Assembly (NCBI GenBank): GCA_003249795.1
Contig: QKHZ01000259.1
Span: 1-34,197 of the forward strand
From: a bacterium
GTDB lineage: Bacteria > Planctomycetota > SZUA-567
Reading direction: 5' to 3'
DNA: 34,197 nt
In this document: positions 16,081 through 33,670 of the stretch, piece after piece
Position numbering within the stretch: position 1 is the first letter of the stretch
Layout: each line of letters starts with the position of its first letter
Position numbers and translations under genes: made by a program
The notes under the pieces: generated by a model
The model's input: only the letters and a program-made list of their open reading frames with translations
What the model was told of the DNA's origin: nothing
Databases searched by the model: none

Positions 16081-16179
16081 TAATAAAAAGTCAACACATT
16101 GCACCGAAATAGATCATCCTTGCCAACCCGAAATCCGGTTACACCGGAAAAGGCATAAACCAGACTGAGGAGTTTGTTG

Positions 16180-17865
16180 ATGAATGAAACAGGCACCGCC
16201 CCAAATCAGGATCTTGCAGGATCACAGCAGTCGCAAGCCTTTCTGTCACCCAAAATAGTTGGCATTGCGGTGTTCGTCTTTGCCATGGTGTTTGCCTTTT
16301 TTACAAACCACGCTTGGGAAGACTTTTACATCACATATCGAACCAGCGTAAACCTCGCGACAGGCAAAGGGTTTGTCTTCACCCCCGGCCAGCACATCCA
16401 CGCCTACACGTCTGTACTGAATACCATCGTGCCTGCGTTCTTCCGTTTTATCGTTGGGGAAGGAAAAGACCAACTCGTTCTCTGGCTTTACAGGATCGTC
16501 AGCGCCGGATCGTTGGCGGTAGCATGCTCGATAGTGTACGCACAACTACGACAAATGAAGTTCGGAAATCTGACGTTGCTTGCGACAATGGTAATCTTCG
16601 GCCTTGAAGCAAAACTGATCGACTATACCATTAACGGGCAGGAAGTCGCATTCATGGTTCTGTTTCTGAGCCTGTCGGCGATGGTGCTTGTCGGCAACAT
16701 CAAGCGCCCTGCATTGGTTCTCGGCCTTGCCTGGGCTGGAGCCATGTACACCCGCCCCGATGCGTTCATCTACTGCGCGGCGATTGCCATCAGTGTCTTT
16801 ATCTTCCCGGCTGCATCCTCACGCAAGCGGATTGAACTGCTCAAGATATTTGCCATCGCAACCGGATGTGTCGTTATTCTCTATCTGCCTTGGGCATTGT
16901 GGGCATGGAGCTATTACGGAAGCCCGGTTCCCCATACCATTACCGCAAAAGGTCTGGGACTTCCGACCGGACTGCGGGGACAACTCGAACGACACCTCTA
17001 TATTATGCGCAATGTACAGACAATTCCACTGAGCCAGGCATGCAAGTCAGTCTATATGCCTGCAGTCTTCTTTTATGGCGGCTGGCCGAAACAGCTGACT
17101 TGGGCATTTGCCGGACTCGCCTATATCGCCTCATTCTACTGGCTGATTCCCTTTGCAAATCCCAAAGCACGCGCCTTCAGCTTCGCAACCCTGATCTGCC
17201 TTTACTATCTGAACTATGTTCCGACAGTCGCCGCTTCATGGTACTATCCCAACGCCGGAGTGTTCACATCACTGGCAATCGGTTTCATTCTCTTTGACCT
17301 GAAACGATCGACGGACTGTATCATCAGCCACAACCCTGAACAAAGCCTCATCCGCACCCTAAAGCTGATCCGCACAGCCATCCCGGCAATCATTATTCTT
17401 GCCATTCTGGCTGTCACTTGCATGGTCGCGATCCAAATCCGCATCCAACAGCGGCTCATCGAAGACGGTGTCCGCACCAAAATCGGCCTCTGGCTGAAAG
17501 ATAATGCCAAATCCCCGAATGACACCGTATTTCTTGAGTGTTTGGGGTATATCGGCTATTTCTCAAACCTGAAGATGTACGACTTTCCGGGGCTCTGCTC
17601 GCCGGAGGTCGTTGAAGCCAGAAAACGGGTCGGAAATGACTGGGGCAATCTCATTCAAGACCTGAAACCGGATTGGCTTGTATTGCGCGTCAAGGAAATC
17701 GGAGGCCTCAACAGCAATCACCCGGGGTTGCTTGAATCACAATATACCGTAGCCAAAAGGATTGACGTCCTGAAAGAAGTCGAAGCGCAACCGTTTATCC
17801 CGGGCAGAGACTACCTGTATTTCGATATCGGATTCACGATTTTCAAACGCAAGGCCAATGAATAA
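16180..17865 (+). CDS. Polytopic GT-C-like membrane glycosyltransferase, paralogue 1 of 4
   Basis: 561 residues with about ten hydrophobic segments. After the first membrane helix (about 25-42) comes the loop NHAWEDFYITYRTSVNLATG (Trp46, Glu47, Asp48), then FVFTPG. This pattern parallels the acidic first external loop of PMT/AftB-type GT-C transferases, where the acidic residue is catalytic. Further shared blocks are DYTINGQEVAFM, MYTRPDAFIYC, and YYGSPVPHTITAKGLG. A soluble C-terminal domain follows (about 425-561: DTVFLECLGYIGYFS, then KPDWLVLR). The likely role is adding a polyprenyl-linked sugar to an external acceptor; this is inferred from fold and motif, not from a known orthologue. 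ATG 16180 follows GAGGAG (16167-16172) by 7 bases. Confidence 0.85.
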   Translation: MNETGTAPNQDLAGSQQSQAFLSPKIVGIAVFVFAMVFAFFTNHAWEDFYITYRTSVNLATGKGFVFTPGQHIHAYTSVLNTIVPAFFRFIVGEGKDQLVLWLYRIVSAGSLAVACSIVYAQLRQMKFGNLTLLATMVIFGLEAKLIDYTINGQEVAFMVLFLSLSAMVLVGNIKRPALVLGLAWAGAMYTRPDAFIYCAAIAISVFIFPAASSRKRIELLKIFAIATGCVVILYLPWALWAWSYYGSPVPHTITAKGLGLPTGLRGQLERHLYIMRNVQTIPLSQACKSVYMPAVFFYGGWPKQLTWAFAGLAYIASFYWLIPFANPKARAFSFATLICLYYLNYVPTVAASWYYPNAGVFTSLAIGFILFDLKRSTDCIISHNPEQSLIRTLKLIRTAIPAIIILAILAVTCMVAIQIRIQQRLIEDGVRTKIGLWLKDNAKSPNDTVFLECLGYIGYFSNLKMYDFPGLCSPEVVEARKRVGNDWGNLIQDLKPDWLVLRVKEIGGLNSNHPGLLESQYTVAKRIDVLKEVEAQPFIPGRDYLYFDIGFTIFKRKANE

Positions 17866-17893
17866 GCCGGTATCACACGCAGACTCACAGTAC

Positions 17894-17924
17894 CCCAGAG
17901 AAGGCGCGGACGCGTCACTCTGGG
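17894..17924 (+). other. Stem-loop immediately before the ribosome site of paralogue 2
   Basis: CCCAGAG (17894-17900) pairs with CTCTGGG (17918-17924). The GAGGAG ribosome site (17926-17931) starts two bases later, so the hairpin could influence translation of the next gene. It has no T run, so it is not an obvious terminator. Confidence 0.45.
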
Positions 17925-17936
17925 TGAGGAGTAGGA

Positions 17937-19655
17937 ATGCCTTCTTCAGCTGACTCCAATCGCGATATTTCCGATACGGATCAAATCTGCATTGAAACGC
18001 AACGCGACCGGAAACCGCCGCTGGCTTGGGCGGTAGGCGGAGCGATATTTCTTATAGCAATCATCTTTGCGCTTTTCACGAATCATGCGTGGGAAGATTT
18101 TTACATCACTTACCGTTCCAGCGTCAACCTCGCCATCGGAAACGGCCTCGTGTTTACTCCGGGCGAACGCGTCCATTCATTTACATCTCCCACCAATACG
18201 CTGATTCCGGCACTGCTGCGCTATATGGTTGGTGAGGGGCGGGATCAGACAGTCCTCTGGCTTTACCGAATTTTGTGCGCACTGGCTCTCGGTACATCCG
18301 CATCAATGGCCTACCGCTGGCTGTATCGCGTCGGCTTCGGTAAAATCGCTCTGGCAGTAACACTGGTCTTTTTGGGGCTAGAATCAAAAGTACTCGACTA
18401 CACCATTAACGGTCAGGAAGTCGCTTGGATGATCCTGTGCCTGATCCTCGCGGTCACGGCGCTGATGGGATCAGGCTCGCAAAAGCGCGTTTCTCTCTGG
18501 CTGGGACTGGCGTGGACGGGGGCAATGTACACCCGCCCGGACGCATTCATCTATTGCGCAGCATTAGCATCCGGCATTTTCCTGTTCCCGAAATCGACCG
18601 CATTCGCACGCAAAGAGCTGTTGAAAATCTACGCACTGGCGACTCTCGGCGTCATCGTTCTCTACATGCCGTGGATTCTGTGGGCGTGGAGCTACTACGG
18701 AAGCCCTATCCCGCACACAATCATGGCCAAAGGCCTCGACATCCCCCACGGGATTCTGGCCAAAGCGCAGGATCACATCAGCCAACTGCTGCATAAAAAA
18801 CCGCTGAGCATGTCCACGTCATTTGTGTTCATGCCAGCCTACCTCCGCGTCGGCGGGTGGCCCTTCGGGCTGCTCCTCGTCTTCAAATCGATCGCATACC
18901 TAGCTGCGTTTTACTGGCTGGTACCATCTGCAAGCGCAAAAGGTCGCGCCCTCAGTTTTGCCACGCTCTTTTCATTTTACTATCTGAATTATGTCCCCAA
19001 AATGCCGGCATGGTGGTATTTTCCGAATGCGGAAGTCTTCGCATCACTCACAGTCGGTTTTATTGTCCACGACCTCTACCGTCTGGCGAACCACATCGGC
19101 ACACACAAGTCCAACCCGCGCCGCAGCCGACTACTACGCTGCTCAATCCATATCGCAAGCACTGCCATGGTTACGCTGGTTTTAACAGTAACGCTACTTG
19201 CCGCGCGGTCGATCCATTACCACCAGTTGCTGGTTGAAGACGGTGTGCGGACGAAAATCGGCCTTTGGCTCAAAGAACATGCGGCCTCACCACGAGACAC
19301 GGTTTTTCTTGAGTGCCTCGGCTATATCGGTTACTTCTCTAATCTGAGGATGTACGACTATCCGGGCCTCAGCTCTCCCGAAGTCGTCAAAGCCAGAAGA
19401 AAGGTCGGTAATGACTGGGCAAAGATCATTGAGGAGCTTAAACCCGACTGGCTCGTCCTACGTCCCTGCGAAATCGGAACCATTACGCAAAATGATCAGG
19501 AACTACTGACAAAAAAATACAGCATTGCCTACGCCCTCGATAACATGGAAAATCTGAAACAACTGCCGATGTTTCCGGGAATCGGTTATTTATACTACGA
19601 TATCGGTTTTTCAATTTATAAAAAGAACAATGCCCACAATGATCCCTGTCCGTAA
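17937..19655 (+). CDS. Polytopic GT-C-like membrane glycosyltransferase, paralogue 2 of 4
   Basis: 572 residues with the same plan as paralogue 1: a polar N-terminal tail of about 30 residues, the first membrane helix, then HAWEDFYITYRSSVNLA with Trp52, Glu53 and Asp54. Multiple membrane helices with DYTINGQEVAWM, MYTRPDAFIYC and YYGSPIPHTIMAKGL follow, and a C-terminal external domain (DTVFLECLGYIGYFSNL, DYPGLSSPEVVKAR, LKPDWLVLRP). It is closest to paralogue 1 in the KIGLWLKEHA junction. A 55-base stretch is nearly identical to paralogue 4. ATG 17937 follows GAGGAG by five bases. Divergence is concentrated in the N-terminal tail and central loops, consistent with different acceptors or sugars. 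Confidence 0.85.
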   Translation: MPSSADSNRDISDTDQICIETQRDRKPPLAWAVGGAIFLIAIIFALFTNHAWEDFYITYRSSVNLAIGNGLVFTPGERVHSFTSPTNTLIPALLRYMVGEGRDQTVLWLYRILCALALGTSASMAYRWLYRVGFGKIALAVTLVFLGLESKVLDYTINGQEVAWMILCLILAVTALMGSGSQKRVSLWLGLAWTGAMYTRPDAFIYCAALASGIFLFPKSTAFARKELLKIYALATLGVIVLYMPWILWAWSYYGSPIPHTIMAKGLDIPHGILAKAQDHISQLLHKKPLSMSTSFVFMPAYLRVGGWPFGLLLVFKSIAYLAAFYWLVPSASAKGRALSFATLFSFYYLNYVPKMPAWWYFPNAEVFASLTVGFIVHDLYRLANHIGTHKSNPRRSRLLRCSIHIASTAMVTLVLTVTLLAARSIHYHQLLVEDGVRTKIGLWLKEHAASPRDTVFLECLGYIGYFSNLRMYDYPGLSSPEVVKARRKVGNDWAKIIEELKPDWLVLRPCEIGTITQNDQELLTKKYSIAYALDNMENLKQLPMFPGIGYLYYDIGFSIYKKNNAHNDPCP

Positions 19656-19781
19656 CAGAAAACCCAATGCGGGTATCATGGCATCAGGCAGCAGATCGTA
19701 ACACAAACCGGAAACGACAGACGCCCTCGCAAACAAATGATGCGGCGAGAGTCGAAAAGAAATAAACGTTAAGGAAACAAA

Positions 19782-19799
19782 CGCGGTTTGATTACCGCG
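19782..19799 (+). other. Small stem-loop upstream of paralogue 3
   Basis: CGCGGT (19782-19787) pairs with ACCGCG (19794-19799) around a six-base loop, 28 bases before ATG 19827. A leader structure or operator is possible; it is short enough to be chance. Confidence 0.3.
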
Positions 19800-19826
19800 C
19801 TGCGGCAAGCAAAAACAGGAGTAACC

Positions 19827-21545
19827 ATGAGTTCTTCATCCCCTGACCAATCGACTCAGGAGTGCGGCACGGAACAATCCAGCCATACCGGATCACCTGC
19901 ACGGATGCCGTGGGCGGTCGGCGGCATCGTCGTTCTTGTTGCGCTTCTCTTTGCCGCCTACACCAACCACGCATGGGAAGACTTCTACATCACCTACCGC
20001 ACCAGCGTCAATCTGGCTGAAGGTAACGGCCTCGTCTTTACTCCCGGGCAGAAAGTCCATACGTTTACGTCACCAATCAACACGCTGCTACCGGCACTGA
20101 TTCGTTATCTTCTTGGCAAGGGAAGCGACACGATGGTTCTCTGGATCTACCGCATCGCCTGCTCTGCAACGCTTGCGGCCGCATGCATGCTGCTTTACCG
20201 GTGGATGAGAACGCTGAAGATCAAGCACATGATCCTGTTGACAGCGACCATCCTGATCGGTCTGGAATCGAAGGTCATCGATTTCACAATCAACGGGCAG
20301 GAAGTCGCGTTCATGATCTTCTTTCTGGCGATGTCGATTCTCTGCATGATGGGTCGGCCCAAACGCCCATGGCTATGGCTCGGGCTTGCATGGGCTGGCG
20401 TCATGTACACCCGACCCGACGGCTTTGTTTACTGCACCGCAATCGCGATCGGGATGTTTGCCTTCCCCGATGCCTGCGGATACGGCAGAAAACAGCAACT
20501 CGCGCTATATATCAAGGCAGCCCTGTGCGTCACGATTCTCTATCTTCCATGGACGCTGTGGACATGGCATTACTACGGAAGCCCCGTGCCGCATACAATT
20601 ACCGCCAAAGGATTGAGCCTTCCGCACCACTGGAAAGGGATCATCGCGTTCCATCTGCAGCGATTGACCAACCGCCCGCTCTTGTCGGAAAGTCTGGCGT
20701 GGGTGTATATGCCGACCTGTTTCTTTCTGGGCGGATGGCCGAACTATCTGGAACTGTTTGCGACACTGACAGCAATCATCGGGGCATTCAGCTGGCTGAT
20801 CCCAGTTGTCTCGCCAAAGACACGCGCTTTCAGTCTGGCCGGCTTCCTGTCGCTTTATTATTTGAATTACATTCCCGCAAGCAAATTCGCCTGGTACTAC
20901 CCGAATGCTTGGATCTTCCTTGCGCTGGCGATCTGTTTTCTATTGCACGATCTCGCCCGTGCCGTCAACTGGTTGCAGGTCAATCAGCCCTCTCCGCAAT
21001 GGGTCATATGGGGTCGCAGACTGCTCAAAGTCACGCCTATCTTGCTGATCTGCGTGACGACACTGACGACGCTTGCCGTCGCATTCCAGATGCGTACCCA
21101 GCGCAAAGTAGCTGAAGAACAGGCGCGGATTCCTCTGGCAATGTGGCTGAAGGAACACGCCCGCTCCGAGAAAGATACGGTTTTCATCGAATGCCTCGGC
21201 TATGTCGGTTATTTCTCGAATCTGAAAATCTACGACTATCCGGGACTGAGTTCCCCCGAAGTCGTCAAGGCGCGTATTGATACGGGGCACACCGACTGGG
21301 GGCGGTGGGACTTGGTCATCAGACATCTAAAACCTGATTGGATCGTCCTGAGGCCGGTTGAAAAAACAGATATCGAAAACAAAGACCCGAATCTGCTGAC
21401 CAAAGCCTATACCGCGGTCAAAGAATTTGACTCAAGCAAGGAACTTGACGGGTACCGCTTCCTTCCGGGAAAACCCTATGTCCGATATGATACGCGATTT
21501 ACCGTCTACAAACGCAATAATAATACAGGAGTACCGCATGAGTAA
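19827..21545 (+). CDS. Polytopic GT-C-like membrane glycosyltransferase, paralogue 3 of 4
   Basis: 572 residues. The conserved loop reads NHAWEDFYITYRTSVNLAEG (Trp50, Glu51, Asp52). DFTINGQEVAFM, MYTRPDGFVYC and YYGSPVPHTITAKGLSLP follow, and the C-terminal domain has DTVFIECLGYVGYFSNL and DYPGLSSPEVVKAR. That domain has a small insertion (DTGHTDWGRWDLV) where the others read as GNDW. ATG 19827 is chosen because AGGAG (19817-19821) ends five bases before it. The last eight bases overlap the start of paralogue 4, so the two are translationally coupled. As for its relatives, a transferase using a polyprenyl-phosphate sugar at the outer face of the inner membrane is inferred. Confidence 0.85.
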   Translation: MSSSSPDQSTQECGTEQSSHTGSPARMPWAVGGIVVLVALLFAAYTNHAWEDFYITYRTSVNLAEGNGLVFTPGQKVHTFTSPINTLLPALIRYLLGKGSDTMVLWIYRIACSATLAAACMLLYRWMRTLKIKHMILLTATILIGLESKVIDFTINGQEVAFMIFFLAMSILCMMGRPKRPWLWLGLAWAGVMYTRPDGFVYCTAIAIGMFAFPDACGYGRKQQLALYIKAALCVTILYLPWTLWTWHYYGSPVPHTITAKGLSLPHHWKGIIAFHLQRLTNRPLLSESLAWVYMPTCFFLGGWPNYLELFATLTAIIGAFSWLIPVVSPKTRAFSLAGFLSLYYLNYIPASKFAWYYPNAWIFLALAICFLLHDLARAVNWLQVNQPSPQWVIWGRRLLKVTPILLICVTTLTTLAVAFQMRTQRKVAEEQARIPLAMWLKEHARSEKDTVFIECLGYVGYFSNLKIYDYPGLSSPEVVKARIDTGHTDWGRWDLVIRHLKPDWIVLRPVEKTDIENKDPNLLTKAYTAVKEFDSSKELDGYRFLPGKPYVRYDTRFTVYKRNNNTGVPHE

Positions 21546-23238
21546 CCCGGATCCAGCTCTTCATCCACAGGGGATTCCGTCCAAAAGCCGCGCTCCGATT
21601 CTAGCCGGCATTCTGGTCTTTGCGATTGTCCTCGGTTTTGCCGCCTACACCAATCACGCGTGGGAAGATTTTTACATCACTTACCGCACCAGCGTCAATC
21701 TGGCCGAAGGCAAAGGGATGGTCTTCACTCCCGGTGAAAAAGTCCACTCTTTCACCTCGCCGCTCAACACCGTCATCCCCGCCGTCTTCCGTTATCTTGT
21801 CGGAGCCGGAAAAACACAGACCGTTCTCTGGCTCTACCGCCTCGTCTGTGCAGGGCTTCTGGCTCTTGCCTGCGCGCTACTGACCAAAGCACTCCAAAGC
21901 CTGAAATTCGGACTCATGCCGCTGCTGGCGACCATCGTGTTGACCGGACTCGAGGCCAAAGTTGTCGACTACACCATCAACGGTCAGGAAATTGCTCTGA
22001 TGGTCTTTTTCCTGACACTCTCGATCATTGCACTCCTCGGCACGAGTAAAAAGCCGGCGATCCTGCTGACAATCGCATGGACCGGCGCAGCGTACAGCCG
22101 TCCGGATTCAGCGGTCTACTGCGGCGCCATCGCCCTCGGTTTCCTCCTCTTTCCGCAAGCCAGTGTCAAACAGGATAACAGCGCTCGTTCGCGGCTCGAA
22201 CTCTTAAAGATGTTCGGTACCGCCGCTGCCATCTCAATTTTATTATTCCTGCCGTGGATTCTGTGGGCGTGGAGCTATTACGGAAGCCCTATCCCGCACA
22301 CAATCACCGCCAAGGGCCTTGGCATGCCGCACGGTCTGAAAACAGTGCTCGCGTATCATCTGCAACAGATTTTCGTCTGGGATCCGTTGCTCAGTCGCAG
22401 CTTGCAAAGCGTCTTCATGCCTGCCAACTACCACGTCGGCGGCTGGGGAGTATACCTTCCGGTAATCACCTGCGTCGTCTCCTGCATCGGTGCGTTTTAT
22501 TGGCTATTTCCGTTGGGTAACCCGAAAGCACGCGCTCTCAGCCTCGCCTCATTCATTTCGCTTGCTTATCTTTGCTATATCCCCAAAACCGCATTTTCAT
22601 GGTACTACCCTAACGCATGGGTCAGCACCGCCCTTGCCCTTGGTTTTATTCTGCAGGATATTTACTGCCTCGCTAAATGGGCTGGCAGCAAAGCGGAACA
22701 ACAACAAACAGTCTGGCTGAAGCGTCTGTCATGCGCCGTCCCCGCAGCCCTAATTTCACTGACGATACTGATGACTCTACTTGTGGCCTGCCAGATGCGC
22801 CAGCAACAGCAGATCATCGAGACCGGACTCCGGATGCCGCTTGGCAAATGGCTGAAAGAAAACGCAGATTCACCTCGCGACACAGTCTTTGCCGAATGCC
22901 TTGGCTATGTCGGCTTTTACTCCGGCCTGAAGATGCTCGACTACCCCGGCCTGTCATCTCCAGAAATGGTCGATGCACGAAAACGGCTGGGTGAAAACTA
23001 TGCAGACCTTATTGCGGATCTGAAACCGGACTGGCTGGTACTGAGGCCGTCCGAGTGCGCAGAGATCACAGACCGCATCCCTGAACTGCTAACGAAGGAC
23101 TACGCTCTCTCCAAAGTCTTCGACGCGGCGAACAAAGTAAAAGGAGCGGTATTCATCCCCGGACGAAACTATCTGTATGGGGACATGACATTCCGCGTCT
23201 TCCACCGCATCAGGCACGAGTCACTGCCAGAAAAATAG
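21538..23238 (+). CDS. Polytopic GT-C-like membrane glycosyltransferase, paralogue 4 of 4
   Basis: 566 residues starting at ATG 21538 inside the end of paralogue 3, with AGGAG (21527-21531) six bases upstream. The loop NHAWEDFYITYRTSVNLAEG (Trp42, Glu43, Asp44) is intact. Later motifs have drifted most in this copy: AYSRPDSAVYC replaces MYTRPDAFIYC, and ECLGYVGFYSGLKMLDYPGL replaces the GYFSNLKMYDYPGL form. The central loop carries a short polar insertion (SVKQDNSARS). The hydrophobic pattern and C-terminal external domain are as in the others. It ends the cluster; the spacer downstream has a strong hairpin but no T run. Intact motifs argue for a working but specialised enzyme. Confidence 0.85.
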   Translation: MSNPDPALHPQGIPSKSRAPILAGILVFAIVLGFAAYTNHAWEDFYITYRTSVNLAEGKGMVFTPGEKVHSFTSPLNTVIPAVFRYLVGAGKTQTVLWLYRLVCAGLLALACALLTKALQSLKFGLMPLLATIVLTGLEAKVVDYTINGQEIALMVFFLTLSIIALLGTSKKPAILLTIAWTGAAYSRPDSAVYCGAIALGFLLFPQASVKQDNSARSRLELLKMFGTAAAISILLFLPWILWAWSYYGSPIPHTITAKGLGMPHGLKTVLAYHLQQIFVWDPLLSRSLQSVFMPANYHVGGWGVYLPVITCVVSCIGAFYWLFPLGNPKARALSLASFISLAYLCYIPKTAFSWYYPNAWVSTALALGFILQDIYCLAKWAGSKAEQQQTVWLKRLSCAVPAALISLTILMTLLVACQMRQQQQIIETGLRMPLGKWLKENADSPRDTVFAECLGYVGFYSGLKMLDYPGLSSPEMVDARKRLGENYADLIADLKPDWLVLRPSECAEITDRIPELLTKDYALSKVFDAANKVKGAVFIPGRNYLYGDMTFRVFHRIRHESLPEK

Positions 23239-24040: not shown

Positions 24041-25348
24041 TTGATTCCATCCCCGTCGCAACAAAAAATCATCAGCAACATCGACGCTTCAGCGCTTTCA
24101 TCTCACTGGAATGACTGGCGCTGGCAGATCCGCAATTGCATCCATACAGACAAATCATTTGAATCATTATTGGAAGTTGAGTTGGCTGACGAAGAGCGCA
24201 GTGCGTTCCAGAAAACTGTCGCAGAATTTCCAATGTCAATCACACCATACTATCTTTCACTGATCGACACGAATGACATTCAGAACGATCCGATTTTCAA
24301 GCAGAGTTTCCCGTCTCCGTGTGAGTTGACGATGAACCGCTACGACATGAGCGACCCGTTGCATGAGGATCATGACAGCCCAGCCGCCTGCATTACCCAC
24401 CGCTATCCTGACCGCGTCCTGTTTCTTGTCAGCAACACCTGCGCGATGTACTGTCGCCACTGCACCCGCAAGCGTCGCGTAGGCGACCGTGACAGCATTC
24501 CATCAAAAGAAGCGTTAAATGAAGGGATAGACTACATCCGCAAACACACCGAAATACGTGATGTCCTGCTCAGCGGAGGCGATCCGTTTTTACTGCCGGA
24601 CGAGATGCTCGACGATCTTCTCAGCCAACTGTCTGCAATTGATCATATTGAGGTCATCCGAATCGGTACGCGTACGCCCATCGTCCTGCCACAGCGGATT
24701 ACGCCGCAACTTGTGGATATGCTGAAAAAACATCATCCGCTCTGGATCAATACTCACTTCAACCATCCGCGCGAGCTGACAAGCTCTGCCTGCCGCGCAC
24801 TGAAGCTTCTGGCAGACTCTGGGATTCCGCTTGGTAACCAGACGGTGCTTCTGGCCGGAGTCAACGACTGTCCACGGATCATGAAACGGCTGGTACAGAA
24901 ACTTGTCGCCAACCGCGTACGCCCATATTATCTTTACCAATGCGACCTCTCCCGAGGGCTCAGCCATTTTCGCACCCCCGTCGGTAAAGGCATTGAGATC
25001 ATGGAGAGCCTGATCGGACATACCAGCGGATTTTGCGTGCCGACCTATGTAATCGACGCGCCCGGTGGCGGCGGTAAAATCCCTGTCATGCCAAACTATC
25101 TGATTTCATGGTCAACCAATAAAGTCGTCCTGCGCAACTATGAAGGTGTCATCACAACCTACAAAGAACCGGACGCGTACGAGCCAACATTCTGTGACCG
25201 CAACTGTGAAACCTGCGACAAACAACTCGCACTCAGCGGCGCCGACGAAACAAAAACCATCGGTATCGAAAAACTGCTCTGTGACTGGGACAAGACGATA
25301 TCTCTCGTTCCGGAAAACAATGCGCGTCTTGAGCGTCGCAATTCGTAA
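24041..25348 (+). CDS. ablA: Lysine 2,3-aminomutase (KamA/AblA family)
   Basis: This 435-residue radical SAM, PLP-dependent enzyme interconverts L-lysine and L-beta-lysine. The iron-sulfur motif is CAMYCRHC (Cys134, Cys138, Cys141), followed by [21 protein letters not shown] is the SAM-binding GGDP element, [14 protein letters not shown] carries the PLP lysine (Lys346), and the C-terminal CDRNCETC supplies the zinc-type cysteines of the family. The start is TTG 24041, decided by AAGGAG six bases upstream (24029-24034). The gene lies between marR and a GNAT acetyltransferase. The ablA-ablB pairing is the signature of N-epsilon-acetyl-beta-lysine synthesis, known from methanogens and some bacteria as a salt-stress solute, rather than lysine fermentation. 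Confidence 0.95.
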
Positions 25349-25374
25349 TCGTTTATAAAACAGGAAATGGAACG

Positions 25375-26304
25375 ATGCCTACGAGCCCCTCCAACGCACA
25401 CGCATCACCGACCACGGATCATTCAGATTCGTCAACACAATCGTGCGGAGATCAGACGGCTACACTCCACGGCGCAGTAGTACAGTACGGGAAGCATAGC
25501 GACCGGATCTATCTGATGAAGATCAACAGCGCCGACCCGATGACGTTGCTTCCCGAGCTCGACCGGCTCGCGGAAAAGGAAAATCTCGGCAAGATCTTCG
25601 CAAAAGTCCCAGCACGAATCGCCCCGGTCTTTCAGGCCAATGGCTATGTCATTGATGCAACAATTCCGTTGTTTTACAATGGCTCCGAAGACGGAATCTT
25701 TCTGGGCAAATATCTGCAGGCCAGCCGTCAACAGGCCGCAGATATCGAAGAGCTTGATCGCGTTCTTGATCTGGCCAGGAAAAAAGTGGAACCGCAAGCA
25801 GGAGAGACATACAGCAACACGGATGCAACACGGCCACTTCCTGCTCAATTCCGTTTTCGCTACTGCCGAGAATGCGACGCAGAAGAAGTCAGCGCAGTAT
25901 ATAAAGAAGTATTTGCATCATATCCGTTTTCGATCGACGATCCGGCATATATCCGCCAGACAATGAAGGAAAACGTCCTTTATTTTTCAATCCGAAACGA
26001 AGGAAAAATCATTGCGCTGTCGTCGGCGGAAATCGACTGGAAAAGTGCGAACGCGGAGATGACCGACTTTGCAACCCTGCCTGAGTATCGCGGCTACGGC
26101 CTTGCCTGCTTTCTTCTTGCGAAGATGGAACGGGCAATGAAAAAACTCGGCATTAAAACAGCATACACAATCGCCCGCGCAATCTCACCTGGCATGAATA
26201 TCACATTCTCCAAAGGCGGCTACCACTACGGCGGACGGCTGATCAACAATACGCAGATCAGCGGGACGATTGAGTCGATGAATATCTGGTATAAAACGCT
26301 CTGA
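25375..26304 (+). CDS. ablB: Beta-lysine N6-acetyltransferase (GNAT family)
   Basis: This 309-residue protein has an N-terminal domain typical of AblB (about 25-120: RIYLMKINSADPMTLLPELDRLAEKE, then KVPARIAPVFQANGYVIDATIPLFYNG). A C-terminal GNAT fold follows (about 155-290), with the acetyl-CoA loop region at LPEYRGYGLACFLLAKMERAM. It acetylates the epsilon amino group of beta-lysine made by AblA to give the neutral solute N-epsilon-acetyl-beta-lysine. It starts 26 bases after ablA, with AGGA about nine bases before the ATG. The first 25 residues are polar and low in complexity, as often seen at the poorly conserved N-terminus. It ends the operon at a bidirectional terminator. Confidence 0.92.
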   Translation: MPTSPSNAHASPTTDHSDSSTQSCGDQTATLHGAVVQYGKHSDRIYLMKINSADPMTLLPELDRLAEKENLGKIFAKVPARIAPVFQANGYVIDATIPLFYNGSEDGIFLGKYLQASRQQAADIEELDRVLDLARKKVEPQAGETYSNTDATRPLPAQFRFRYCRECDAEEVSAVYKEVFASYPFSIDDPAYIRQTMKENVLYFSIRNEGKIIALSSAEIDWKSANAEMTDFATLPEYRGYGLACFLLAKMERAMKKLGIKTAYTIARAISPGMNITFSKGGYHYGGRLINNTQISGTIESMNIWYKTL

Positions 26305-26378: not shown

Positions 26379-28853
26379 TCAGAGCGGACGAACCACGTGC
26401 GCACACCATGCAAGACCGCGGTACTCGCGATAGCCCTGCGTCCGTGAAGAGCCGAGGATGTAACGTTTCTCGTTCTGATGATAGACCCCTGATGCACTTT
26501 GACCATCGGCAAGTTTGCGGTGGGCATCCGGCAAACTGATCACCGCGCCGACAGGGAACGCATCTTCATTTGTTGTTTCAATCACTTCATGCTGCTCGTT
26601 TGTGTAAAACGCCGCGCATCCGGCGATGAAGTTTCCTTCCGCATCACGCGGCAGACAGTTATGCAAGATCTTCTTGGCTTCGGTGTCCCAGTCGAACATC
26701 ACACCCAATACACCGGTCGCATCCCCCTCTCGCGCACCGGCGGTACGGATTCCGCCCGAATAAATCAGCGAACGCTCTTTGTGTTTTTCAAGAACGGATT
26801 TCTGGATATCCTGCACGGCGTACTCGTTTGAGCGTTGCGTCCGCATCCCGTTCTGGAACCACTCCTGATCTGAAACATTCACCTTCTTCAGTTCATTGCG
26901 CAGTTCCATCTTCGCGCAGGCGACGATCTCGCCGCTGGAGTCAGCAAGCACAAGATTGCGGTACATGGTATAACTGTTATTGATCACCTTTAGGCGGTTG
27001 CACGCTCGCTGGAACGCCTCTTCAGACGGATCAGACAATGCTTCCCAGAAATAGCGGTCGGTAGACCACCAGCGGATATCAGCAGACCGTTCAAAGAGGT
27101 TGCGGTCGATCAGGTCGATCGCCTGCTTGCTGAACATCTCCAACGCCTGCAGGTTGAGCGCGAGTTCACCCGCAGCCATTTCGCCAAGCAGGTCTTCCAT
27201 GCGGCTTGTTGCAAAGTCACCAGTTTTCGTGATCTGGTCAAAGATCGGCCCCAGCGCAACGCCGCGCTTGCCGAGTTTGGACGCAAACACAATCCCGTTC
27301 AGCGAAATAAGCTGGATCGACTCTTTGTCTTCCTGAATTTTCTCATACGTCTGTTTATTGATATCGGGAATGATCAGCGAGTCCATCAACTCTTCTGTGC
27401 TGATGCCGGCATAACCGACATGATAGCGGCTTCCGAAAATCCCCTCACGCGGAACAATCAGGTGCGAACTCCAGCCGAGTCCCTTGTACTCAAGATAGCC
27501 GTCTGTTTTAGCGGTAAAGATCGCCGCGTCCTGCCCTTCGACAATCGCGTAGCTACAGACTTTCTCACCCGAGGAAAGCGAGCGGTGGTTGCGCGGTACA
27601 TGCGCCGAGCGCTCCGGCTCAAAGATTGCCTCATCACTCGAGCCGATGATGCGGCCTTTTTCATTGGTGAAAAATGAATACCAGCCAGTGGCCAACGAAC
27701 CGTTATCCTCTTTGGGAATGTAGTCCTCAAGAATGATCGTCGCCTCTCCCTGAAAATCAAACAAGATGCCCATCGCCCCGATCACCGCGCCGTTGTTATC
27801 GACATTCTCGCGAATCGCAGTCGTATAGACCAGCGACTGCACATCCTCGATCATGCCATGGGTCAGGTCTTGCGCAAAATACTCGTTGCCGTCCCGCGTT
27901 TTCATCGCTTCCCTAAACCACTGGGTATCGGAGATATCAGTCCCCAGAACACGGTGGCGGGTCTGGCGGTTGGCATTGGCAATCACAACGCCCAACCGGT
28001 CGCAAATCACGAGGTCACGGTACAACGTGTACGAGCTGTTAATATCTTCCAGGCGCTGGCAGGCGAATTGAATTTTTTCATGAAGACGCGTCAGTTCGAC
28101 CGTCGAATCGCGGAACTGCTTCTGCAACTCTTTGCCCGGTGCAGTCGTCGGCAGCGCATTGATCAGCGCATCCACCTTTTCTTCATACACGGCAAACGAT
28201 TCCTGATCGACCAGTACTTTTACATTTTCCGAAAGTAACGGAAGAACCTGACGGATACACAGGAGCAAATGCGGCTCGGAACCGATCTCCGCAACCCGCA
28301 TAATATCAGAGTCGGCATAGTCGCCCCGTTTTTCAATCGAATGCTCCAGATCTTCCAACTGGCTGACAAGCGTTCCGATCATTTCGCGGACGTCATTGAA
28401 CGAGCCGACACAATCGGCAAACGCCGTTTCCAGCGCCCACCACCGAACATCACACGTCCGTTCAAGCAAGTTGCGGTCGATCAGGTTGATTTTGACATAC
28501 GCAACGTTCGACAGAATCATGCGGTAGAACTCTTCCTTGGCCTGATAAAACTGGTCGAAAAGTTTTTTCGTCACATCCAAGAGTTCATGACTGAAGTTTT
28601 CCACGCGGATCATCAGGTCAGTAATCTGCTCCTGCTCGGTTGCGTCCTCACTGATCTCAACGGCAGAACACTTTCCCTGATTGCAGATCGGAAACAGACC
28701 GTTCAGTTCATTGACGATCTTCTCATAGAACTCGCGGTGTTCATACGTAATCACCGGATCAAAGATACTGAACTTGGTCTTCATTCCGATGCCATCATCC
28801 TGATTTTCGTCATGTTCGGATTGCGTGGCAGAAGCGGATTTACTCGCAGGCAT
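26379..28853 (-). CDS. Soluble sensor protein with two Cache-like modules, chemosensory-operon partner
   Basis: About 824 residues with no signal peptide or membrane segment. A helical N-terminal region (about 1-120) is followed by two copies of one module. Each has the leader LIDRNL(L/F)ER..D(V/I)RWW (about 124 and 581), a helical part ending in NSYT(L/M)YR(D/N)LV, and a Cache/PAS-like sensor fold (SDTQWFREAMKTR..NEY..QD and SDQEWFQNGMRTQ..NEY..QD). Each ends in a G(A/V)(M/L)G(I/V)(L/M)FD strand and a REYRGL/LEYKGLGW segment. No methyl-accepting or HAMP domain is seen. It is the last gene of the cheA-cheW operon and probably supplies the input. ATG 28853 is chosen because GAGAGG sits 7 bases upstream; an ATG two codons earlier is too close. 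Confidence 0.8.
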   Translation of the reverse strand: MPASKSASATQSEHDENQDDGIGMKTKFSIFDPVITYEHREFYEKIVNELNGLFPICNQGKCSAVEISEDATEQEQITDLMIRVENFSHELLDVTKKLFDQFYQAKEEFYRMILSNVAYVKINLIDRNLLERTCDVRWWALETAFADCVGSFNDVREMIGTLVSQLEDLEHSIEKRGDYADSDIMRVAEIGSEPHLLLCIRQVLPLLSENVKVLVDQESFAVYEEKVDALINALPTTAPGKELQKQFRDSTVELTRLHEKIQFACQRLEDINSSYTLYRDLVICDRLGVVIANANRQTRHRVLGTDISDTQWFREAMKTRDGNEYFAQDLTHGMIEDVQSLVYTTAIRENVDNNGAVIGAMGILFDFQGEATIILEDYIPKEDNGSLATGWYSFFTNEKGRIIGSSDEAIFEPERSAHVPRNHRSLSSGEKVCSYAIVEGQDAAIFTAKTDGYLEYKGLGWSSHLIVPREGIFGSRYHVGYAGISTEELMDSLIIPDINKQTYEKIQEDKESIQLISLNGIVFASKLGKRGVALGPIFDQITKTGDFATSRMEDLLGEMAAGELALNLQALEMFSKQAIDLIDRNLFERSADIRWWSTDRYFWEALSDPSEEAFQRACNRLKVINNSYTMYRNLVLADSSGEIVACAKMELRNELKKVNVSDQEWFQNGMRTQRSNEYAVQDIQKSVLEKHKERSLIYSGGIRTAGAREGDATGVLGVMFDWDTEAKKILHNCLPRDAEGNFIAGCAAFYTNEQHEVIETTNEDAFPVGAVISLPDAHRKLADGQSASGVYHQNEKRYILGSSRTQGYREYRGLAWCAHVVRPL

Positions 28854-28972
28854 GATCATTCCTCTCTACTGACCCGGGAACCCCGGCACGGATCTTCATA
28901 TACCCTAATATCGCATCAAAATATTCTTTCACCTACAGCAGGTCTGCTTGAAACAGAACATTGATTGCCCAC

Positions 28973-29464
28973 TCAGCCAGACTCAACCGCATTCGCCGCT
29001 TCCGCATTTGCAAGAATCGTATCAATCAGCGTCCGAATGCAGAGAAGCATCATATACCCATCATCAATCCGGACAATCCCGTAAACAAAGTCATGCAGAA
29101 TATGTGCAGGACGCGGTAAAATCTGTTCAGGAGTCACATTCAGAATTCGGCTTGTCCTGTCCACCCGCAGCGCGACGCTCTCTTCATGTGAATGCACGTC
29201 CAGCGAAATCGCCTCTTCAGTCAAATCATCCTGCGTTTCAAGCAGAATCATTTTACTCGGAGCATCCGCTGACTGCTCGGGCTTATCCAGACACCGCCGC
29301 ATATCAAGCACGGTCGCCGTCTTTCCACGCACATGGATCAGACCCTCGACACGAGAATCGGCCAGCGGAACCGGCGTCACCGGCACAGGACGAAAAAACT
29401 CCTCCACCAACAGAACTGGAATCCCGTACACGCCATCACCGATGTGAAAGGACACGATTTGCAT
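28973..29464 (-). CDS. cheW: CheW-like chemotaxis coupling protein
   Basis: This 163-residue single CheW domain has MQIVSFHIGDGVYGIPVLLVEEFFRP as strands 1-2, then PLADSRVEGLIHVRGKTATVLDMRRCL, the G-x-x-x-x-R-G-x(7)-D core of CheW proteins, and EESVALRVDRTSRILNV as the second subdomain. It couples receptors to CheA. The ATG lies inside the end of the cheA gene (29 bases of overlap), so the two proteins are made together. The 113-base gap to the downstream sensor gene contains no terminator. An insertion with an acidic stretch (QDDLTEEAISLDVHSHEE) is somewhat longer than usual. The assignment is secure at the family level; the partner receptor is inferred to be the adjacent sensor protein. Confidence 0.9.
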   Translation of the reverse strand: MQIVSFHIGDGVYGIPVLLVEEFFRPVPVTPVPLADSRVEGLIHVRGKTATVLDMRRCLDKPEQSADAPSKMILLETQDDLTEEAISLDVHSHEESVALRVDRTSRILNVTPEQILPRPAHILHDFVYGIVRIDDGYMMLLCIRTLIDTILANAEAANAVESG

Positions 29465-32400
29465 GGCCTGCTCCCGTTGATGCTAATTCATCCCGTACAT
29501 TTACGCCTGTGGATTTCGCTGTCTCAATCTTCCGGGCAAACAACTCCACACAACGCGTCAGGCTGTCTTTGTCAACCTTAACCACGTATTCGTCAAACCC
29601 GAGCCGCATCCCGCGCTCACGGCTTGCGCTGTCCTGAAGCGCCGTCAGTGCAATCACAGGCAACTCCTGCAGCAGTGGGTCGCCGCGAATGGCCTTGACC
29701 AACCCGAACCCGTCCATGTTCGGCATTTCTATATCAGTCACCACCATATCATATGAGGTCGGATTCTGACGCAGATTCAGCAGCGCCTCGCGGCCGTCAT
29801 TGACAATCGTCAGATCACGCCCCGGCCCTGACAGATACGTCGAGTTCAGCTTGCGGTAAAAAAGGCTGTCCTCCACAATCAGAATCCGCGCAGGAGTAAT
29901 CGTATCGCGACCGGAGGTGTCAAAGTTATCCGGATCGTCATGCTCAAACAGCGCGTAAAGATCCAGAAGCATCACAAGCTTACCACCGTGCATAAAGGTG
30001 CCCAGCACGCCTTTGTCATGCGTGATCTTCGAGTCAAACTTCTCAGAGATGTCATGAACGGCAATATCGAAATTGGTCAAGAGACCGATCGGAAACTTCA
30101 CGCGCGCCGGCAGAATCAGGTTATAGTATTCCAGATCACGCGGCAGTTTTGAAATCGGCAGGTGTTTGTCCAGATACAGCAACGGAATCGTGTTGCCCTT
30201 AAACGGATAGTAACAGCGGTCGCCAACCCGGCGGATATCCGAAGCCTTGATCTTCTCAACAAGCGAGACCAGTTCAAGCGGTACCGCGAAATACTCTTCT
30301 TCCGAATAATTAAAGATAATCATGGTCTGCAGATCGGAACGCTTACCGACACTGAGCGCAGGAAGCTTTGACTCCATCTTCTGCGGCACAGCATTGAACT
30401 TCATATTCATCCGCTCGACCACGCCGCCAATGTCCACCAGCATTACGACCTGACCGTCACCAAGAACCGTGTGACCGCTGAAGACATTTGAACCGGATGC
30501 CAATTTGGGAAGCTCCCTGACAACCGCCTCTTCAATCCCGATAATTTCGTCAACAATCATCCCGACCAGATTCTGACGATGCTGCAAAACGATCAGGGTC
30601 TGACCGGCTGTCGCTCCACGGGTATGTCTTCCACCATGTTTGCCGTTCTGCTTTCCGGCAGGTTTACCCGAATGGCGAGCCCCCCCGGAGGCAACCGCAT
30701 GCGCGTTGACAGAATTCGCGTTTGCGACTTCCGCATCAGACGCCGCTTCTTTTGTGTGAACACCCAGAGCCGAGGCAAGCGGTATAATCGGCACCACAAG
30801 CTCGCGGTGCTGGAACACCTCCTGCCCCTGCAGAATCCGGATCTTGGTATGACGATCACTCTCCGAAACACGGATCAGCTCATTCACAGCGCTCTGCGGA
30901 ATACAGAAACGGTGCCCGCTAACCCGAACGACCAGCGCCGCGATCAATGAAGATGCAACCATCGCCTTCGTCAGCGGCAGACGCGCCTGAATCGTGGTGC
31001 CCCGCCCCATCTCGGTCTGGCAATCGATCACACCGCCGATGGCTTCGATATTCGTCCGCACAACATCCATACCAACGCCACGCCCCGACACCGCGCTCAA
31101 TTTTTCCGCAGTCGAAAAACCTGGTTCAAAGATCAGAAGCACAGCCTTGTTGTCCGGCATGCTCTCGGCTTGCGTGGGGGTAATGATTCCCTTCTCCAAC
31201 GCCTTGCCTTTCACCCGCCCAATATCGACCCCGCGGCCGTCATCACAAACCGCGATAATAATTTCACCGCTTTCCTGATAAGCTTTCAGGGTGATGGTCG
31301 CCATATGCGGTTTTGCGGCGACCTGACGCTCCTGCGCAGTTTCAATTCCGTGGTCAAGTGAATTGCGGATCATGTGCGTCAGCGGATCAACAAATGCCTC
31401 GAGGATTGTCCGGTCAAGCTCCATCTCCCCGCCTTCGGTGCGCAGCTCTACATTCTTATCCAGCTGGTGCGACAAGTCACGTACCACGCGGCGGAAACGA
31501 TCAAAAAGCGAACTGACCGGATTCATCCGCGTCTGGACAACGCCGCGGTGGACTTCGGTGATCGCCTGACTCAATGTCGCGAATGCGGAATCATCGGCAA
31601 AATCATACCGAGTCAGGAGCTGGTTGCGGCTCATAACCATGTTGCCCGTCAGCCGCAGAAGCTGATCGAGAAAGCGCGCATGAATCTTAATCATGGCGCC
31701 GTCATCAGCACCGGCTTTCGCTGCACGGCCGGAGCGTTTCGATGCCGGTTTATCGTCGACCACGACGGTATCTTTTTTCGAAGGAGCCTTTTTCACCGGC
31801 ACGCCCTGCGGTGCAGACTTTGCAGCCGCTGGAACAGGAACAGACTGCGCGGGTTTTACGGCAGGTGGAGCGACCGGAGCGGCTTTCTTGCCACTGGAAG
31901 ATTTGCCTTCCAACACATCGCAAACAACCGTTTTCGACATCGCCCCCATCTGGTCAGGCTTGATATTTGCAGAACACGCAAGCATATCTTCATCAAGAAC
32001 TGTCAGGATCAGCGCCTTGCCCGCTCCTTCTTCATGGACAGCCAACACACCGACCTCGGTCATGCTGCCGGTAATAATATCATCCTGCTCCGGATCAACG
32101 CAAATCCAGTACGGCATCTTTCCCTGCCGCAGCTCCTGCTTCAGCTGATCATCGCTGATCCCGCCTGCACGGTGGCCGCTTGCAAGAAGATCAAGCATCT
32201 GCTTCTCGACCGATGCGCCAACGCCTGATGCTGAACTGTCGCCTTCTGGTGGAATTTCAGAAAGGACATCCGCCTCAATCCGCGTATCACTGTCGAAGCT
32301 CATCCCGGCCGCACCCGCAGCTTGCGATGCAGCTGGCGCTGATGCGGGATCATCCTGCATCGTCTGCTGCAAAAGCGAAAGCACCATCGACGTGTCATAG

Positions 32401-32729
32401 CTTGCGCCCAAGTCAGACGACTCGACCATCGCACGCAACGCATCTGTAGTTTTCAGAAGAACATCAGTGATTTCCGCAGTCAGCTCACGCTCATCCTTGC
32501 GGACTTGATCCAGAAGAGTTTCACCAAGGTGGCTGACTTCAAGAATATTGTCAAGACCAAGATAGCCGCTGCTGCCCTTCATCGAGTGAATGGCGCGGAA
32601 CATCTTGTTGATGAGTTCGGGAGTAACGCCCGTCTCTTCCAGTGCCAGCAGATCCTGCTCAAATATTTCCAGATTCTGGCTGTTTTCGACAACAAATTCT
32701 TCCAACAGCGCTGGATCTTGATCTTGCAT
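29436..32729 (-). CDS. cheA: CheA hybrid histidine kinase with Hpt, two CheW-like modules and C-terminal receiver
   Basis: 1097 residues. The Hpt domain has the phospho-accepting His48 (FRAIHSMKGSSGYLG). An acidic, then Ala/Pro-rich region (about 110-345) replaces a clear P2 domain. The dimerisation helix follows (about 350-420), then the ATPase with N box Asn456 (MIRNSLDHGIE), G1 (CDDGRGVD) and G2 (SAVSGRGVGMD). A CheW-like P5 module is interrupted by a Gly/His/Lys-rich insertion, and a second CheW-like module starts after about residue 790. A receiver ends the protein, with phospho-acceptor Asp999 (MVVTDIEMPNMDG) and KVDK. The protein can therefore take phosphate from ATP to His48 and on to its own receiver. 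No CheY, CheB or CheR lies nearby. ATG 32729 follows CAGGAG by six bases. Confidence 0.93.
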   Translation of the reverse strand: MQDQDPALLEEFVVENSQNLEIFEQDLLALEETGVTPELINKMFRAIHSMKGSSGYLGLDNILEVSHLGETLLDQVRKDERELTAEITDVLLKTTDALRAMVESSDLGASYDTSMVLSLLQQTMQDDPASAPAASQAAGAAGMSFDSDTRIEADVLSEIPPEGDSSASGVGASVEKQMLDLLASGHRAGGISDDQLKQELRQGKMPYWICVDPEQDDIITGSMTEVGVLAVHEEGAGKALILTVLDEDMLACSANIKPDQMGAMSKTVVCDVLEGKSSSGKKAAPVAPPAVKPAQSVPVPAAAKSAPQGVPVKKAPSKKDTVVVDDKPASKRSGRAAKAGADDGAMIKIHARFLDQLLRLTGNMVMSRNQLLTRYDFADDSAFATLSQAITEVHRGVVQTRMNPVSSLFDRFRRVVRDLSHQLDKNVELRTEGGEMELDRTILEAFVDPLTHMIRNSLDHGIETAQERQVAAKPHMATITLKAYQESGEIIIAVCDDGRGVDIGRVKGKALEKGIITPTQAESMPDNKAVLLIFEPGFSTAEKLSAVSGRGVGMDVVRTNIEAIGGVIDCQTEMGRGTTIQARLPLTKAMVASSLIAALVVRVSGHRFCIPQSAVNELIRVSESDRHTKIRILQGQEVFQHRELVVPIIPLASALGVHTKEAASDAEVANANSVNAHAVASGGARHSGKPAGKQNGKHGGRHTRGATAGQTLIVLQHRQNLVGMIVDEIIGIEEAVVRELPKLASGSNVFSGHTVLGDGQVVMLVDIGGVVERMNMKFNAVPQKMESKLPALSVGKRSDLQTMIIFNYSEEEYFAVPLELVSLVEKIKASDIRRVGDRCYYPFKGNTIPLLYLDKHLPISKLPRDLEYYNLILPARVKFPIGLLTNFDIAVHDISEKFDSKITHDKGVLGTFMHGGKLVMLLDLYALFEHDDPDNFDTSGRDTITPARILIVEDSLFYRKLNSTYLSGPGRDLTIVNDGREALLNLRQNPTSYDMVVTDIEMPNMDGFGLVKAIRGDPLLQELPVIALTALQDSASRERGMRLGFDEYVVKVDKDSLTRCVELFARKIETAKSTGVNVRDELASTGAGHANRVLSHR

Positions 32730-32994: not shown

Positions 32995-33387
32995 CTAAGC
33001 AATATTTCTATTATAGTCACCGAGGTGCATTGTGTTAAAAATCATTTCACGAAGTTGATCGGCAAGGATAAAAGCGTTGATCAGTTTCTCATAAATCGGA
33101 TCAGACTGTGGCCGACGGCTCTGGCTATAGGCACGTGAGGCCATCTCATGCAGCAACAAATCAGCCCGGCGAGTCAAAGAAAGTGCATCTGCGTAACATT
33201 CGATCTGCACATCCATCGTTTCAGCCATAACGCCTTCTGCCACGCAACGAGGAATCTGGCGCATCAAGGATGCATACTCTTCACCAACAGGCTCTTCAGA
33301 GCAGACCATCGCTTCATGCATCGCCTTGAACATCCGGCTGGCCTGTTTCCAGAGATCATTATTCCGAAGTTGTTCTACATCCGCCAT
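32995..33387 (-). CDS. Four-helix-bundle protein (23S rRNA intervening-sequence protein family)
   Basis: 130 residues, all helical by inspection. The pattern LWKQASRMFKAMHEAMV is followed by LMRQIPRCVAEGVMAET, then ECYADALSLTRRADLLLHEMA and a last helix. It matches the four-helix family, whose hallmark is the xxQIRRAxxSIxxNIAEG helix, seen here with changes (QIPRCVAEG). Members form pentameric bundles of unknown role; some sit in rRNA insertions, others near retroelements, but no rRNA or reverse transcriptase is present here. ATG 33387 is preferred: AAGGAG (33394-33399) is six bases upstream and the length fits the family. An in-frame ATG at 33477 also has AAGGAG at eight bases and would add 30 residues that look less protein-like. 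Function is unknown. Confidence 0.75.
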   Translation of the reverse strand: MADVEQLRNNDLWKQASRMFKAMHEAMVCSEEPVGEEYASLMRQIPRCVAEGVMAETMDVQIECYADALSLTRRADLLLHEMASRAYSQSRRPQSDPIYEKLINAFILADQLREMIFNTMHLGDYNRNIA

Positions 33388-33670
33388 TTCAAGCTCCTTG
33401 TACGCGCTAACGCTGCCAAATTTGATTTGTAAAAATATTAGTTCCCCACCGTAAACGGCAGTCGTTAGCTTCTTCATCGTCGCATCTCCTTAAAATAATT
33501 AGGAAAAGACAACCTTTTCTCTATTAGCATTCTCATACTCAATATACATGTAACGCATAATCAAAAACAGTAACGCTTTTTCTCAAAATCTCACAGAACC
33601 CACAACATATTTAACAACAATAAATTAAACAAACCAGCATCACCATTTTCATAAAAAAAACCATTCCAAG

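Follow-up and report, generated by a model that had tools for sequence, protein, structure and literature searches.

How can the kinase of a chemosensory system be controlled by a soluble sensor that has neither a membrane segment nor a recognised methyl-accepting domain? This question is raised by three minus-strand genes, cheA, cheW and a sensor gene, at positions 26379-32729 of contig QKHZ01000259.1 from a planctomycete (SZUA-567; assembly GCA_003249795.1). The window, i.e., the whole stretch of DNA analysed, comprises 34,197 nucleotides. The initial annotation described a compact chemosensory operon with a soluble Cache-like sensor in the position of the methyl-accepting chemotaxis protein (MCP), an arrangement that we found to be kept across phyla. 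It also held that the sensor lacks the hairpin that docks to CheW. Our results show that the unit is real and conserved, but that the term hairpin-less sensor fits it less well than does soluble tandem tip-Cache receptor with a CheA and a CheW of its own. In a tip-Cache receptor, the MCP signalling tip comes before a double Cache (dCache) domain.

A diverged signalling tip in the sensor

The sensor consists of two modules, a feature overlooked previously; in each, a long helical stretch leads into a dCache domain whose start is near DRNL[LF]ER..D[VI]RWW. Its sole Pfam match, dCache_1 (PF02743), is barely over the cut-off (46.5 vs 45 bits), and a search by sequence profile found no solved structures for it. 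A structure search with the whole AlphaFold model (22 sequences; mean predicted local distance difference test score 83) returned dCache domains, the sensor domains of DctB and Tlp3 being among the top matches, and a double Cache fold is thus predicted. Cache domains are usually extracytoplasmic (PMC4822843). The window sensor departs from the location usual for dCache_1 sensors, as it has no hydrophobic membrane segment; the highest 19-residue Kyte-Doolittle mean is 1.50 and lies within a Cache domain, in agreement with the initial annotation.

Single-module relatives of the sensor, mostly 340-440 amino acids (aa) long, occur in the same phylum and on proteobacterial plasmids, and some are annotated as methyl-accepting chemotaxis proteins (e.g., Burkholderia stagnalis WP_060148510.1 and Methylobacterium WP_318784668.1). 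Like the window sensor, they have an MCP tip and then a dCache domain with the DRNLYERSCDVRWW anchor, with about 26-34% identity in the matching parts. In those examined, MCPsignal matches only at the tip (profile 39-89, 1.7e-15; 35-92, 3.5e-13; 43-110, 9.9e-22), and the LN of the tip precedes the Cache anchor DRNLYER by 76 aa. However, they have one module and a near-consensus tip and mostly lie away from cheA and cheW, whereas the window sensor is a tandem with diverged tips and has its own cheA and cheW. No che genes were found among the annotated neighbours of the plasmid copies of the single-module receptor, and one single-module receptor divergently adjoins a CheA hybrid with two CheW domains (locus L082).

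In the window sensor, LN is found at the equivalent place of module 2, 65 aa before DRNL and 11 aa closer than in the single-module relatives. We built a tip profile from the single-module proteins and scored it against 2000 shuffled controls. Module 2 beat all of the shuffles in every one of the 18 two-module proteins tested (12.3 bits for the window sensor and 7.7 for the weakest ortholog, against 6.1 for the best shuffle), and across the whole window sensor the best position of the profile was aa 500-560. In Methanolobus the tip is nearer to the canonical form (tip-profile E-value 2.7e-5 for one protein). The tip segment is also among the most conserved parts of the protein, with a mean column identity of 80% compared with 55% over the whole length. 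Structure prediction of the sensor alone with AlphaFold gave a hairpin in module 2, the helix being broken at the LGKRG turn both in the full protein and in the segment modelled alone. When the segment of aa 499-598 was searched with Foldseek (210 matches), chemoreceptors took ranks 1-5 and 10 of the top 11, with probability up to 0.97 and E-values of 0.16-0.6 (3g67, 3g6b, 2ch7, 1qu7 and models); at the top were Thermotoga soluble chemoreceptors, integrative models of Bacillus subtilis MCPs and the Tsr cytoplasmic domain. Taken together, the spacing, profile, AlphaFold and structure-search results contradict the absence of a hairpin, and, as judged from sequence and models, module 2 carries a strongly diverged MCP-type signalling tip at the place equivalent to that of the single-module relatives. 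Because such a hairpin is predicted, the different route of signal transfer that the initial annotation called for is not needed. An MCP signalling hairpin in the sensor was also the finding that this annotation had itself named as refuting its view.

Several observations weigh against this reading. As the initial annotation stated, the window sensor has no Pfam match to MCPsignal (PF00015). The domain E-value of its own tip is just 0.0074, and the profile-profile scores of the tip are weak. The Foldseek E-values exceed 0.1 and stand without a control hairpin model for comparison; we therefore take the chemoreceptor-like result for the hairpin as supporting evidence, short of proof. Furthermore, Glu and Arg of the EAARAGE motif are replaced by Phe and Lys in the window sensor, and thus the usual trimer contacts may be lost.

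Module 1 was considered as a second intact tip, which the data did not support. The LN of LNGLFPICNQGKC lies 76 aa before DRNL, as in the single-module relatives, but the tip profile did not score above the shuffles there, the profile-profile scores were at chance level and the AlphaFold helix break lies elsewhere, which again does not favour the signalling reading. His41, Cys59 and Cys150 of module 1 do not vary among the two-module sensors, and Cys136 and Cys267 hardly do so; these residues may form a metal or redox site.

The methylation helices of ordinary receptors are absent from the sensor: the pre-tip helix of module 2 has about 30 residues, and the post-tip helix, of about 62, continues straight into the Cache domain. 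Such a short tip hairpin fits the absence of cheR and cheB from the locus, and without methylation helices the sensor would have no methylation-based adaptation.

Pairing with CheA and CheW across phyla

The other two genes of the unit are well supported. Pfam confirmed that CheA is a hybrid with Hpt, HATPase, CheW and receiver domains, and cheW overlaps the end of cheA, both as first annotated. Three PF01584 pieces in CheA, however, represent two CheW domains with an insertion splitting the first one, which had been overlooked. This two-CheW hybrid architecture is common to the orthologous triads (cheA, cheW and sensor). The window CheA has kept the Hpt His, all three of the N, G1 and G2 boxes, and Asp, Thr and Lys of the receiver, as have its triad orthologs wherever the segment is present. 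Two CheW domains with a receiver are the mark of the flagellar CheA class F5, and an insertion that makes profiles report three CheW pieces has been described for Desulfobacteraceae CheAs (PMC10782961). With its pair of CheW domains and its C-terminal receiver, the window CheA shares the domain architecture of class F5 including the insertion, but its operon differs from those of the class in lacking MCP, CheR, CheB and CheY. In a tree that held no labelled class references, it clustered with alphaproteobacterial two-CheW CheAs from plasmids.

We scanned 84,980 species genomes with two peptide patterns and found 22 loci, a lower bound given that only two patterns were used. The co-conservation of the three genes was complete: cheA and cheW stand beside the sensor gene in all 16 bacterial loci with enough flanking sequence, of which four were completed by tblastn (cheW in L099, L100 and L112; cheA/cheW in L102). 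Three more bacterial loci end at the sensor, at a contig end. The triads are found in Planctomycetota, Verrucomicrobiota/Lentisphaerota, Desulfobacter, Fibrobacterota and Bdellovibrionota, in the order cheA-cheW-sensor or sensor-cheA-cheW. A scan of the window locus for promoter and terminator consensus sequences gave counts near those of shuffles, so that co-transcription of the three genes rests on overlap, spacing and conservation.

The pairing is not universal, which weighs against a dedicated receptor of CheA: in three loci of Methanolobus archaea (L104, L105 and L108), the two-module sensor has no che genes as neighbours. The sensor gene of L105 is followed by an Ion_trans_2 channel gene, and that of L108 by a similar-looking gene. 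No relatives of the sensor were found in viral contigs. At locus L110:6941-9365 (GEM2.Bin49), a frame change divides the sensor between two open reading frames that overlap; the break may be genuine or come from an assembly error.

The CheAs that accompany the sensor form two supported groups of 11 and 3 rows in the CheA tree, the smaller being sister to a CheA of the window genome (L067) that adjoins two ordinary MCPs. The two groups imply that the sensor was coupled to CheA at least twice, or exchanged with MCPs, as expected of a receptor, and these relationships suggest that it probably fills the slot of an MCP. The tree of Cache modules (midpoint root only) divides module 1, module 2 and the single-module proteins into three groups, consistent with a single duplication that preceded the spread of the family. 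From these comparisons, the sensor appears to be a tandem duplication of a tip-Cache receptor, a receptor type that has been little described so far.

Two other observations concern chemoreceptors of the window genome. A contig-end fragment of a second two-module sensor (C271:2-523, minus strand; L071) resembles the sensor-first type of SZUA-421 (L101), and the rest of its operon probably lies beyond the contig end. Contig C156 (L067:5750-7891, minus strand) encodes a chemoreceptor in which the MCP signalling domain is joined to Fer4 and to the large-subunit domain of an iron-only hydrogenase (PF02906, 1.4e-33). Its gene lies next to a dCache_2 MCP and to the L067 CheA, sister of the smaller group of triad CheAs.

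Mode of signalling and output

The gene set and its conservation were computed directly, as were the integrity of the kinase and receiver residues, the tandem make-up of the sensor, the diverged tip with its fold class and the repeated pairing with CheA. With these results, we consider it probable that the sensor is a cytosolic tandem tip-Cache chemoreceptor and takes the place of the MCP, the unit being a reduced chemosensory system that does not adapt through methylation. For the ligand, the direction of signalling, the docking of the tip and the flow of phosphate, we infer the following course. An intracellular ligand would bind one or both dCache domains, and the change would travel along the long helix into the hairpin, which precedes the Cache domain, whereas receptors usually have the opposite order. 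Docking of the module 2 tip on CheW and on CheA's CheW-type domains would then set the rate at which CheA phosphorylates the Hpt histidine. The phosphate may pass on to the CheA receiver and to a separate response regulator. The gene for this regulator would lie elsewhere or, in Desulfobacter vibrioformis, may be a receiver-GGDEF gene.

Our literature search for cytoplasmic Cache chemoreceptors gave nothing direct, but parts of the arrangement have parallels. DosM of the Vibrio cholerae F9 system (PMC7534058) is likewise soluble, with two signalling segments per chain and its own chemosensory cluster, and is described as rod-shaped, with signalling domains at both ends, and as spanning two baseplates. 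The window sensor, however, has a dCache domain in each module and one recognisable tip in place of two complete signalling domains. Two fused copies per chain are also found in the engineered single-chain receptors Tsr~Tsr, in which the fused receptor pair is able to control CheA, and in natural soluble single-chain MCP signalling domains (Rhodospirillum centenum; PMC4692393). Unlike the window sensor, Tsr~Tsr has consensus signalling domains in the usual order, and the natural single-chain forms are described as signalling domains only, without a sensor (PMC4692393). Chemoreceptors with a C-terminal sensor, such as the CZB types (PMC7390727), also have the sensor domain after the signalling hairpin, but the window sensor carries dCache instead of CZB, is a tandem and has no methylation region. 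A chemosensory core is paired in several bacterial phyla with a receptor of reversed domain order, made of two fused copies and without membrane part or methylation region. The tandem sensor would be a natural counterpart of the engineered single-chain receptors, and the unit would offer a compact, naturally occurring way to test which features of a receptor are truly needed by CheA and CheW. The conserved family of Cache sensors is seemingly intracellular, where Cache domains are unusual.

One possibility, compatible with this receptor function, is that the output is the flagellar motor, reached through a CheY encoded elsewhere, the unit serving as an intracellular (energy or metabolite) taxis input. 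The class F5 architecture of CheA (PMC10782961) would agree with it. So would the genome: the initial annotation was correct that CheR, CheB, CheY and MCP genes are absent from the locus itself, but the window assembly as a whole (3.8 Mb, 291 contigs, about 82% complete) has matches to 9 MCP, 13 CheW, 5 CheR and 3 CheB, and to FlhA, and therefore the Che parts in question are missing from this operon only. On the other hand, neither cheY nor a flagellar gene lies at the locus, and in D. vibrioformis the receiver-GGDEF gene, with two receiver stretches, starts about 17 bp after the sensor of the triad, pointing to cyclic di-GMP. We regard flagellar output as a tenable minority explanation.

A more specific form of the receptor explanation is that the tandem is a natural asymmetric single-chain 'dimer'. 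The hairpins of both modules would be paired in one chain, module 2 keeping the kinase-contact tip and the tip of module 1 being repurposed (His41 and Cys59, possibly as a metal or redox site), so that a single soluble molecule would link a signal from inside the cell to CheA and need neither membrane nor methylation nor the usual trimer-of-dimers array. We offer this idea tentatively, and it is rather unlikely to hold as a whole.

The hairpin could also be a relic, the protein being a soluble Cache regulator that titrates CheW or is an accessory, while ordinary MCPs encoded elsewhere drive CheA. Ordinary MCPs are indeed present in the window genome and in all eight other host genomes examined, and the Methanolobus copies of the sensor stand alone. 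However, the strict occurrence of the sensor together with cheA and cheW in bacteria, the second pairing with CheA and the conservation of the tip segment well above that of the whole protein make this explanation improbable. The view that there is no receptor hairpin at all, and that CheA is controlled by an unspecified route via helical leader segments, could draw on the missing MCPsignal match and the distance of the tip from the consensus, but it is very hard to reconcile with a strongly conserved, diverged tip at the expected place and a predicted hairpin that matches chemoreceptors. Equally improbable is the initial proposal that signalling ends at CheA's own receiver, here taken as a phosphate sink or cis regulator with nothing downstream: the receiver residues are intact and the window operon has no separate regulator, but about a third of all CheAs carry a receiver, commonly in systems with separate regulators as well (PMC10782961), as at plasmid locus L118, where a receiver-bearing CheA lies next to a response regulator and cheZ, and both the receiver-GGDEF gene after one triad and the Che and flagellar genes elsewhere in the window genome leave that proposal unsupported.

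Gene coordinates and neighbouring genes

The features of the locus are listed in Table 1. The sensor gene starts 113 bp after cheW. For the 160-aa protein encoded upstream of cheA, just one genome of the same family has a homolog upstream of the operon (1e-19; L061:3851-4306), and the protein is a possible extra member of the unit.

Table 1. Features of the chemosensory locus, in window coordinates
Feature	Position	Strand	Details
160-aa protein upstream of cheA	32995..33477	-	no Pfam match
cheA hybrid	29436..32729	-	1097 aa; Hpt, dimerisation, HATPase, CheW, CheW, receiver
Hpt domain of CheA	32430..32708	-	PF01627 4.7e-12; phospho-acceptor His48 (IHSMKG), His aligned across orthologs
HATPase_c of CheA	30969..31388	-	PF02518 2.3e-16; N, G1 and G2 boxes intact, aligned
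First CheW domain of CheA	30414..30938	-	two PF01584 pieces, 30741-30938 and 30414-30611
Second CheW domain of CheA	29910..30287	-	third PF01584 stretch; segment kept in orthologs
Receiver of CheA	29556..29885	-	PF00072 4.3e-18; Asp999 (VTDIEMP) phospho-acceptor, Thr1029 and Lys1051 present, aligned
cheW	28973..29464	-	163 aa; PF01584 5e-25; 29-bp overlap with cheA end
Soluble two-module sensor	26379..28859	-	826 aa
Module 1 helical segment	28434..28745	-	aa 39-142; no tip by profile
Module 1 dCache	27450..28079	-	about aa 261-470; PF02743, structure matches
Module 2 helical hairpin (predicted)	27066..27365	-	aa 499-598; turn at LGKRG; AlphaFold and PDB search
Diverged MCP tip motif (putative) LISLNGIVFASKLGKRGVALGPIFDQI	27231..27311	-	aa 517-543, module 2
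Module 2 dCache	26382..27065	-	about aa 599-826; structure matches

Heading towards the sensor gene on the plus strand (24041-26304) are a lysine-2,3-aminomutase family gene and then a GNAT acetyltransferase gene, arranged as in the pair for the osmolyte N-epsilon-acetyl-beta-lysine. Further away (16174-23238, plus strand), four related membrane-protein-like open reading frames of 563-603 aa follow in succession; they have the common stretch NHAWEDFYITYR(T/S)SVNLA.G.G.VFTPG and are probably tandem duplicates.

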